Of a DNA stretch of 64,000 nucleotides, positions 237-14,223 are shown in pieces. Source of the stretch: Candidatus Thermoflexus tengchongensis (GTDB taxonomy: Bacteria > Chloroflexota > Anaerolineae > Thermoflexales > Thermoflexaceae); NCBI GenBank assembly GCA_016842085.1, contig JAEVEX010000063.1, positions 1-64,000 on the forward strand, in the 5' to 3' direction. The translations under genes and the position numbers were made by a program. The notes under the pieces were generated by a model. The model made no database searches. It was not told the DNA's origin and saw only the letters and a program-made list of their open reading frames with translations. Numbering within the stretch: the stretch's first letter is position 1; each line of letters begins with the position of its first letter.

Positions 237-1903
237 CTCATGAGGCGATCATGGATGGTCCCATCGACAGCCGCACCTTCGCCTATCAACCGGTGATCCT
301 GGAGAAGCTGCCCAGCATTAAGGACGGGGATGCTGTGGTTGAGGAGGTGGAGGTCTCCGAGGGGACCTATCCGATTGCGGATGCGGCCGGCAATGTGGTG
401 ACCCTCACCAAGGGCGTCAAGGTGAAGGTCCTGACGGATCCCGCCACCGGGAAGACCGAGGATCGGACCTTTGAGGGCGGCTCCATCAAGCTCCCCGTGA
501 TGAAGGTGACGTTCAAGATCAAGGACGGCATCAAGTGGTCCGATGGCCAGCCGGTGACGGCCGAGGACTCGGTCTTCTCCTTCGAGGTGGCCAAGGCCCC
601 CGAGACCAAGGTCTCCAAGTTCACCGTGGAACGGACCGCGGAATACAAAGCCCTGGACGCCCGCACGGTGCAGTGGGTGGGGATCCCCGGCTGGATCGAT
701 GCGACCTATTTCATCAACTTCTGGACCCCGCTGCCCAAGCATAAGTATGGCAACCTGACGCCGGCCCAGATGAACGAGGATCCCGATGTCAATCGCAATC
801 CGCTGGGCTGGGGCGCCTTTATGATGAAGGAGTGGGTGGCGGGCGACCACATCACCGTGGTGAAGAACCCGAATTACTGGCGCGCCGGGGAAGGCCTGCC
901 GCGGATCGACACGGTGATCTTCCGCATTGTGCAGGACACCAACCAGCTGCTGGCCCAGCTGCTCTCCGGCGATTGCGACATCGGCACTCAGGATGCCGCC
1001 TTCGATGCCCAGGCGGAGTTCCTGAAGCAGGCGGAAGCCGAGGGGCTGCTGAAGCCGCAATTCGTCCTGGGTACTTCCTTTGAGCACCTGGACTTCAACA
1101 TCCAGCCGGCGCCGGGGTATCAGATCGCAGCCGGCAACGATGTGTTCCAGGACAAGCGGGTGCGCCAGGCTTTCGCTTACTGCATCGACCGCAAGGCGAT
1201 CATCGACCGGGTGCTGTTCGGCCGCAGTGAGGCCCCGGCGGTCTACATGCCCTCCATCCACCCGCTCTATGCCAAGGATGTGGTCACGGTCTATGAGTTC
1301 AACCCCGAGAAGGGCCGCGCCCTCCTGGAGGAGGCTGGGTGGAAGGACACGGATGGCGATGGGATCCGGGATAAGGGCGGCCGGAAGTTCAGCGTGACCT
1401 ATGGCACGACAGCCGGCAACCGGCTGCGGGAGCAGGTCACCCAGATCATCCAGCAGCAGCTCAAGGAGAACTGCCAGATCGAGGTGAACCTTTACTACAA
1501 GCCGGCCCGGGAGTTCTTCGCCGACTGGCCGGATGGTCCGGTGTTCGGGCGTAAGTTCGATCTGGCGGAATACGCCTGGGTGACTGGCGTGGAGCCGCCG
1601 TGCGAGCTCTACAAGACCGATCAGATCCCGTCGGATGAGAACCCCGGCGGCCAGAACAACACCGGCTACAGCAACCCCGCCTACGATGAGGCCTGCAACC
1701 GCGCCCTGGGCACGCTGGATCCCGATGAGAAGAAGAAGTGGCATGCGGAGGCCCAGCGGATCTTCAGCGAGGACCTGCCGGCGCTGCCGCTCTTCGTCCG
1801 GCTGAAGATCGCGGTGGCCTCGCCGAAGGTGAAGAACTTCATCGTGGACCCGACGGCGAACTCCGAGATGTGGAACATCGAGGAGTTCGATATCGAACGT
1901 TGA
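237..1903 (+). pseudogene. Peptide/nickel ABC transporter substrate-binding protein (SBP_bac_5), 5'-truncated
   Basis: The frame is open to the TGA at 1901-1903 and gives about 555 residues of an extracytoplasmic solute-binding protein of ABC family 5 (oligopeptide type). Family features are FKIKDGIKWSDGQPVTAEDS, a VRQAFAYCIDRKAIIDRVL-type helix, the GDGIRDKGG loop and the C-terminal MWNIEEFDIE. The usual signal peptide/lipobox and roughly the first 60-80 residues are missing. In-frame codons before about 237 (ATG 152 or 191) belong to the adjoining insertion-like sequence and give no export signal. Even if translated, the product would stay in the cytoplasm. No permease or ATPase genes follow; a strong terminator comes directly after. 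The fold assignment is certain and the pseudogene status is an inference. Confidence 0.75.
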
Positions 1904-10920: not shown

Positions 10921-11114
10921 TGGATAGGAGCTACGCCGTCGGCCGGCCTGACCCCGAAGATTTTCCCCTTCCCCGTGGTCCACAGGGCTACGGCGAGGGG
11001 GAGGGGAACTCTCCCTTTCCGATGGAAGCCCTGTTGCGCAGGTCCTGTCCCTGTTCAGGGCGGCGTCCGCGGGCTCCCTTTCTACCTTCGTAAGGATCCT
11101 GCAGGAGTCAGACC

Positions 11115-12164
11115 GTGGATAACAAGACGATCCGCCTGACGGCGCTGGCTTCGTGCGCCGGTTGAGCCAGCAAAATGGCCCCGGAGGCCCTGGCGCACGT
11201 GCTGCGCCGGCTTCACGAGGAAATCCCACCCCTGCCCCATCCGGCGGCCCTGATCGGGATCGAGGCGCCGGATGATGCGGCGGTCTATCAGCTGGACGAG
11301 GAGACCGCCCTCGTCCAGAGCACGGACTTTTTCCCGCCGGTGGTGGATGATCCTTATGCCTACGGCGCCATCGCGGCGGCCAACGCGATGAGCGATATCT
11401 ACGCCATGGGCGGGGAGGTCCGTTTCGCCCTCAATCTGGTGGCGTTTCCGGAGAGCCTGGATCTGGAGATCATGGTTCGGATCCTGAAGGGGGCAGCGGA
11501 TAAAGTCGCCGAGGCGGGCGGGGTTGTGCTCGGCGGTCATACGGTCACAGACCGCGAACCGAAGTTCGGGCTGGTGGTCACAGGCGTGGTGCATCCTCAA
11601 CGGATCCTGCGGAAATCCGGCGCCCGGCCCGGGGATGTCCTGATCCTGACGAAGCCGCTGGGGAGCGGGGTGATCACCACCGCCCTGAAGCGGGATCTGG
11701 CCCATCCGGAGGAGGTCGAGGAGGCGATGGCCTGGATGATGCGGCTGAACAAGACGGCCGCCCGGCTGGCGGTGAAATGCAACGCCCATGCCGCCACAGA
11801 TGTGACCGGGTTCGGGCTGCTGGGCCATGCCTGGGAGATGGTGGAGGCCTCTGGGGTGGGGCTGACTCTGGAGATCCACCGGCTCCCCTGGATGCAGGGT
11901 GCCCGGCGTTGTGCGGAGGCCGAGGCGTTCGCCGGAGGGCTCTGGCGGAACCGGGAGTTCTACCGACCGCACGTGCGTCTGGAACCGTCGATAGATGAGG
12001 TCGCGGAGGCCTTGCTTTACGACCCCCAGACCTCTGGAGGATTGTTGCTGGCCTTCGCCCCGGCGGATGCGGAGGCCTTCTGCGCCCGGATGGCGGAGGC
12101 GGGCGAGTTCGCCCGGGAGATCGGACAGTTCGGGGGAAAGCCGGAGATCCGGGTGATGCCCTGA
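11115..12164 (+). CDS. selD: Selenide, water dikinase (selenophosphate synthetase), selenocysteine-containing
   Basis: The real gene starts at GTG 11115, 8 bases after AGGAG, and reads VDNKTIRLTALASCAG, then an in-frame TGA (11163-11165, residue 17), then ASKMAPEAL. SelD enzymes have Cys or Sec at this spot, followed by a conserved Lys, so the TGA is best read as selenocysteine. A conventional call starting at ATG 11175 would lose the catalytic loop. The rest is a standard AIRS/PurM fold: APDDAAVYQ, FALNLVAFPE, GGHTVTDREPKFGLVVTGV and ATDVTGFGLLGHAWEM. The full length of 349 residues is normal. The enzyme makes selenophosphate from selenide and ATP for Sec-tRNA and selenouridine synthesis. 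No selA, selB or selC lies in the window. Confidence 0.9.
11166..11194 (+). promoter_or_regulatory. SECIS-like hairpin directly after the UGA codon
   Basis: Right after the TGA, GCCAG (11166-11170) pairs with CTGGC (11190-11194), and an inner GGCC (11177-11180) pairs with GGCC (11186-11189) around a CCGGA loop. Bacterial SECIS elements are hairpins in this position that recruit SelB. The fine structure (bulged U, GU in the loop) was not verified by folding. Confidence 0.5.
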
Positions 12165-12307
12165 TTCAGGAGCTGGCCCCACCCCAGGAATCCCCTGCAG
12201 GAGGTCAATGGCGTAGCGCCTGATGGGGATCGAAGAGGGGATCCTCATCCCGGGCGCGGCGTCACGTTCTCCGGGAAATGGACTCCGGGAGGGACGGAGG
12301 AGAGAGC

Positions 12308-12751
12308 ATGTCCAGCCCTGCGCAGCCCTTTGAGGAGATCCCTCACACGGCGGACTGGGCCATCCGGGCCTATGGGCGGACGCTGCCGGAGCTGTTCGCC
12401 AACGCGGCGATGGGGATGTATAGCCTGCTGGTCGATCTGGATGCCCTGGGGGAATCGGAGCGGCGGGAGGTCGAGGTGGAGGCGGCCAGCCCCGAAGGTT
12501 TGCTGGTGGCCTGGCTGAACGAACTGGTCTACCACACGGAACGGGAGCACCTGGCTTTCAGGCGGTTCGAGATCCATGAACTCCGCCTGCCCGATCCCGG
12601 GGATCCGGATTCCATCGGTCGCCTTCGCGCGACTGCTTATGGAGAACGGACCCGGGAGATGCGAAAATATATTAAGGCGGTGACCTATCACAATGTGGCC
12701 ATCCAGCAGGATGATGGATATTACTGGGTGGAGCTGGTGTTCGATGTGTGA
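12308..12751 (+). CDS. Archease (RtcB cofactor)
   Basis: This 147-residue protein shows the archease pattern: [20 protein letters not shown] at the start, [33 protein letters not shown], and the C-terminal VKAVTYHN-type motif ([12 protein letters not shown]) with acidic metal-binding residues. Archease speeds the guanylylation of RtcB and allows multiple turnover. ATG 12308 was preferred over 12278 because GGAGGAGAG precedes it. The stop codon is 11 bases before the rtcB start, so the two are an operon. They are placed downstream of selD, 143 bases away. Confidence 0.93.
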
Positions 12752-12762
12752 GGAGGGAGATC

Positions 12763-14223
12763 ATGGCGCGGGAGATTCGGAAACAGGATTTCCGACGGAT
12801 CCATGAGTATCTCTGGGAACTGCCCACTTCGTTCGACCCGCGGATGAACGTCCCCGTCCGAATTTATGCGGACGAGGAGCTGCTGGAGGACGCGCTGGGG
12901 GATCTGTCGGTGCATCAGGCGGTGAATGCGGCCTCGTTGCCCGGCCTGGTGGGAGCCGTCGTTGTCATGCCCGATGTGCATATGGGCTATGGCTTCCCCA
13001 TTGGAGGGGTGATGGCCAGCCGAGTTCCGGGCGGGATCATCTCACCGGGGGCGATCGGGTATGATATCAACTGTGGCGTTCGGCTGCTGGCGACCAATCT
13101 GACCTACGAGCAGATCGCGCCGCATCTTGCGGAGCTGGCGTCGCGGATCTATTACAACTGTCCCAGCGGGGTGGGCTCCGAGGGCCACGTGCCCCTGACG
13201 GCGAAGCAGCTGGATGAGGTGCTCGCGGAAGGGGCCCGCTGGGCGCTCCGCCACGGCTACGCCCGGCCGGAGGACCTGGAGCACACCGAGGAGTTCGGCT
13301 GCATGCCCAACGCGGATCCGGATAAGGCGACCCCTAAAGCCAAGGAGCGGGGGAAGGATCAGCTGGGCACCCTGGGCGCCGGGAATCATTTCATCGAAGT
13401 GGATGTGGTGGATGAGATCTTCGATCCGGTGGGTGCGGAGCGGATGGGCCTCTTCGAGGGGCAGGTGGCGGTGCAGATTCATTGTGGCTCGCGGGGCTTC
13501 GGGCATCAGATCTGCACCGATTACCTGCAACGCTTCGAGCGGGTGATCCATAAATACGGCATCAAGCTGCCCGACAAGGAACTGATGTGTGCACCCATCG
13601 ATAGCCCGGAGGGACAGGATTACCTGAAGGCGATGGCCTGTGCGGCGAACTTTGCCTTCTGCAATCGCCAGATCCTGGCGCACTATATCCGCAAGAGCTT
13701 CGAGGAGGTCCTCAAGCCGAAGGGCATCGCCCACGACGTCTGGCAGGTTTACGACATCGCCCACAATATGGGCAAGATCGAAACCCACGAGATCGACGGC
13801 CAGCGGATGACCGTGTGCGTCCATCGGAAGGGGGCCACCCGCGCCTGGGGCCCGGGCTCCCCAGGCTTGCCGAAGAAATACACCGACATCGGACAGCCGG
13901 TCCTCATCCCCGGCTCCATGGGTACGGCGTCCTATGTGCTGCTGGGGACCCCCGGGTCGATGGCGCAGACGTTTGGGAGCACCTGCCATGGGGCGGGCCG
14001 GGTGATGAGCCGGGCTCAGGCCAAGCGGGAGATCCGGGGCGAGAAGCTGAAGGCCGAGCTCGAGAGCCAGGGCATCGTGGTCCGCGCCGGCTCCATGGCC
14101 GGGCTGGCTGAAGAGGCCCCGCGAGCTTACAAGGACGTCAGCCGCGTGGTCGAGGTGGTCCATCACGCGGGGATCGCCAGGAAGGTGGCGCGGCTGCGGC
14201 CGATCGCGGTGATCAAGGGATGA
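12763..14223 (+). CDS. rtcB: RNA-splicing ligase RtcB
   Basis: The 486-residue protein has full RtcB motifs: [32 protein letters not shown] with the metal-binding Asp and Cys, [48 protein letters not shown] and [12 protein letters not shown], where the His accepts GMP. It joins 2',3'-cyclic phosphate (or 3'-phosphate) and 5'-hydroxyl RNA ends using GTP and Mn(II), for tRNA repair or splicing. ATG 12763 has AGGAGGGA just before it; the frame also opens at GTG 12748, which overlaps the archease stop. Coupling with archease supports an efficient, multi-turnover ligase. Confidence 0.96.

Follow-up and report, generated by a model that had tools for sequence, protein, structure and literature searches.

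The window analysed here is a stretch of 64,000 nucleotides from the genome of the thermophilic bacterium Candidatus Thermoflexus tengchongensis. It contains on the + strand a gene for selenide, water dikinase (selD; 11115-12164), which has 349 codons plus a stop and one internal UGA, predicted to encode selenocysteine (Sec) as residue 17. The frame runs from GTG 11115 through VDNKTIRLTALASCAG to the TGA at 11163-11165 (+ strand), continues with ASKMAPEALAHVL, and ends at the stop codon at 12162-12164; the peptide around the TGA reads VDNKTIRLTALASCAG-U-ASKM. The TGA is in frame between GTG 11115 and ATG 11175. A ribosome-binding motif, AGGAG (11103-11107, + strand), is located 7 nt 5' of the GTG, whereas inspection of the sequence directly 5' of ATG 11175 found no motif of this type. 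ORF calling with translation table 11 placed the start at ATG 11175 and reported a truncated SelD of 329 aa (11175-12164, + strand). Exactly 20 codons are lost in this way, including codon 17 (the TGA) and the 16 codons ahead of it (11115-11162, + strand). The first-pass annotation had proposed both the longer frame and the loss of 20 N-terminal residues by a standard caller, and both were borne out: when the TGA is read as a residue, the product is a complete SelD. For annotation, this means that callers without a Sec model would drop the N-terminal residues of SelD together with its catalytic site. Further ORFs follow downstream of selD (window positions 12278-14223), namely, one that we take to be archease-like (12278-12751) and one that presumably encodes an RtcB-like RNA ligase (12748-14223).

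In Escherichia coli SelD, the catalytic residue is Cys17. The read-through product from the window is a full-length match to the SelD equivalog model TIGR00476 (384.3 bits against a cut-off of 125; profile positions 1-310 of 311) and a full-length homologue of the E. coli enzyme (PDB 3u0o; E = 3.8e-66). In the alignment with 3u0o, the residue encoded by the TGA (residue 17) falls on E. coli Cys17, in agreement with the earlier proposal, made from the sequence motif, that the TGA occupies the active-site loop position where other SelD proteins have Cys or Sec.

The codon at this position was compared among the selD loci of relatives. It is TGA in 75 distinct sequences; about 15 others have a Cys codon, TGC or TGT. 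Among named records, Candidatus Thermoflexus japonica (95% identity) comes closest, followed by Ca. T. sinensis (91%) and Thermoflexus sp. SKYG36 (86%). The 16 codons 5' of the TGA are kept among Thermoflexus species with mostly synonymous changes; the species comparisons gave 2, 4, 4, and 7 synonymous differences and 0, 1, 2, and 2 non-synonymous ones, and part of the latter are GTG/TTG differences in the start codon. The evidence for coding through the TGA is far beyond chance. A different account would make the TGA a sequencing or assembly error, or selD a truncated or nonsense-mutated gene that starts at ATG 11175. It agrees with the short form reported by a standard ORF caller, but the identical TGA recurs in several Thermoflexus species that were assembled independently, as well as in dozens of other taxa, the upstream codons are conserved at the protein level, and the short form would lack the catalytic residue. 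We consider the chance of such an error or truncation to be practically negligible, and a truncated gene or pseudogene was rejected based on the conservation of the TGA and its upstream codons.

A search for SelD across 298 genomes of the same class extended this comparison. Among the matches listed, which represent the top-scoring part of the SelD matches in the class, 139 genomes have a SelD with one internal TGA and seven have a SelD with none. This ratio (139 of 146 genomes, among the matches listed) suggests that the Sec form predominates among the SelD proteins of this Chloroflexota class. SelB is present in 126 of the 139 genomes with a TGA-containing SelD, compared with three of the seven without an internal stop (Fisher p = 0.004, with kinship ignored). 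The other 13 of the 139 have no SelB at E <= 1e-60, and several of these are incomplete assemblies. As a separate observation, the SelD of a metagenome-assembled genome deposited as Thermoflexus hugenholtzii JAD2 is just 53% identical to that in the window; given this low identity, the species label of that genome may be wrong.

The first-pass annotation had predicted that selA, selB, and selC would be found elsewhere in the genome, and all three were located outside the window. There is one tRNA-Sec (80.8 bits, above the gathering score), which ARAGORN also identified as tRNA-SeC with anticodon TCA; the next tRNA match above the cut-off is an ordinary tRNA-Ser. SelB was found with 302 bits (328 when the neighboring stretch is included) and has the SelB winged-helix domains, and SelA was found with 564 bits. 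Neither absence that would have spoken against Sec decoding, that of selB or that of tRNA-Sec, was encountered. The genome also encodes YqeB, a marker of the selenium-dependent molybdenum hydroxylase trait (TIGR03309, 360 bits against a cut-off of 220; contig C45, 21341-22105). For YbbB/SelU, the tRNA 2-selenouridine synthase, the search of this assembly, which is about 95% complete, produced nothing but sub-threshold fragments of 24 positions. On contig C72, a gene for a phage integrase of the tyrosine type (L129:7222-8382) starts roughly 100 nt 3' of the tRNA-Sec gene (L001:1501-1594) and has the same direction, as if selC served an integrative element as its attachment site.

A search for other genes with an in-frame TGA, which the first-pass annotation had called for, identified a SelW-like gene (Rdx, PF10262; contig C48, 32727-32942). 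Its product reads MLRVEIEYCAV-U-GYLPRAVRLTEELL; the U marks its single in-frame TGA, which lies at the CxxU site (positions 1687-1689, minus strand of locus L143). The gene with its TGA was found in eight of the nine Thermoflexus genomes searched, the ninth being 76% complete, and the TGA is kept in all eight genomes in which the gene was found (8/8). It provides independent evidence that this organism decodes UGA as Sec. This gene, too, would be cut short by a standard caller. When the genome was tested family by family, no TGA was found inside the matches to formate dehydrogenase-like genes, peroxiredoxin genes, or HesB genes.

These genes bear on another account of the selD codon, namely, that the UGA is read through without Sec, with a near-cognate tRNA inserting, for example, Trp or Cys, in the manner proposed for insect SPS1-UGA (PMC4561486). 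Such non-Sec read-through of SPS genes has been described in metazoans (PMC4561486). Here, however, the complete Sec machinery and a second gene with a CxxU site are present in the same genome, and where homologues differ at this position, they have Cys. Non-Sec read-through is therefore very improbable for Thermoflexus selD.

Directly after the TGA, the sequence can form the two-stem, SECIS-like hairpin that had been noted in the first-pass annotation (11166-11194, + strand). The order of its elements is GCCAG...GGCC-CCGGA-GGCC-CTGGC, with an outer stem GCCAG/CTGGC, an inner stem GGCC/GGCC, and the apical loop CCGGA (11181-11185) located 16-20 nt after the TGA. In isolation, this hairpin folds at -12.0 kcal/mol; its support from shuffled sequences is weak when the window sequence is taken alone. 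For this single sequence, the comparison with dinucleotide shuffles was not significant (z about -0.8), and that with synonymous-codon shuffles was marginal (p = 0.045 over 33 nt and p = 0.62 over 27 nt). When a longer stretch was folded, a competing downstream stem was preferred. A search of the TGA region against Rfam returned no relevant family.

The relatives provided a broader comparison. In the 75 TGA-type selD genes, the first 33 nt 3' of the TGA form more stable structures than their synonymous recodings do (mean z -1.1); for five control regions taken from these genes, the mean z values ranged from -0.54 to +0.02. A scan of the hairpin center peaked at the expected offset, with a combined z of 1.34 in the TGA forms versus 0.55 in the Cys forms. 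The registers used by the relatives vary (42, 43, and 44), which led us to reject a single SECIS register for the whole phylum. Nor is the outer stem conserved at the level of the phylum. Because the registers differ, we do not claim a single pairing for all relatives. In addition, the Cys-type selD genes also give a hairpin signal at register 44 (z 0.77, n = 15). Given the differing registers and this signal in the Cys forms, the structure test is supportive rather than decisive.

With coding conserved through the UGA, its position homologous to Cys17, and the machinery present in the genome, we consider it nearly certain (probability about 0.97) that selD of Thermoflexus encodes a selenoprotein in which the UGA at 11163-11165 is decoded as Sec17 by SelB and Sec-tRNA(Sec) via the putative SECIS hairpin. 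The steps of this process are predicted from sequence. Translation would start at GTG 11115; SelB carrying Sec-tRNA(Sec) would bind the hairpin directly after the UGA and insert Sec at 11163. In the N-terminal active-site loop, Sec17 would then stand where E. coli SelD has its catalytic Cys17 and would participate in the reaction of the enzyme as a selenophosphate synthetase, which converts selenide and ATP to selenophosphate. Since SelA would use the selenophosphate from SelD to make Sec-tRNA(Sec), SelD is expected to support its own synthesis. Selenophosphate probably also feeds selenium-dependent molybdenum hydroxylases, because YqeB is present.

A more tentative reading concerns the selenoproteome as a whole. 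It is possible, if rather unlikely, that the selenoproteome is minimal, perhaps consisting of SelD and the SelW-like protein only, and that the whole Sec machinery serves these two, with SelD additionally supplying selenium for the cofactor of molybdenum hydroxylases. This reading is based on the few families tested (formate dehydrogenase, peroxiredoxin, and HesB), and more selenoproteins may exist. If it is true, the Sec system of Thermoflexus would come close to maintaining itself.

SelD is one of the two most widespread bacterial selenoproteins, and some species have SelD as their only selenoprotein (Zhang et al., 2006, PMC1794560). Sec was found in 19% of prokaryotic SelD proteins, always at the same position and with a bacterial SECIS (Mariotti et al., 2015, PMC4561486). 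Compared with this share of about 19% in a general prokaryote set (PMC4561486), the Sec forms make up 139 of 146 in the class of Thermoflexus, among the matches listed. One paper (PMC4959059) names both Thermoflexus and selenocysteine and does not mention SelD. The finding of a Sec-containing SelD in Thermoflexus is correct and is not novel, as this arrangement is known across many bacteria. The surprise implied by the first-pass annotation was overstated, given that Sec-SelD is a long-known, textbook selenoprotein family; biologically, there is nothing unusual about this gene, whose product belongs to a known kind of self-dependent enzyme.

Comparisons with characterized proteins place the gene accordingly. 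E. coli SelD (3u0o) has Cys17 and no UGA, whereas Thermoflexus selD has the UGA at residue 17, and the active-site motifs are GAG-C-GCK and CAG-U-ASK, respectively. The SelD in PDB 2yye/2zod is homologous across residues 6-314 (E = 3.1e-63) and has a GCAAK-type motif, with Cys at the site in the solved chain in contrast to the UGA in Thermoflexus. The Sec-containing SelD/SPS family shares with Thermoflexus selD an in-frame UGA where E. coli SelD has Cys17, a hairpin (SECIS-like and putative in Thermoflexus) within the coding sequence directly downstream of the UGA, and the Sec machinery elsewhere in the genome. Thermoflexus selD differs from this family only by its organism and its flanks.
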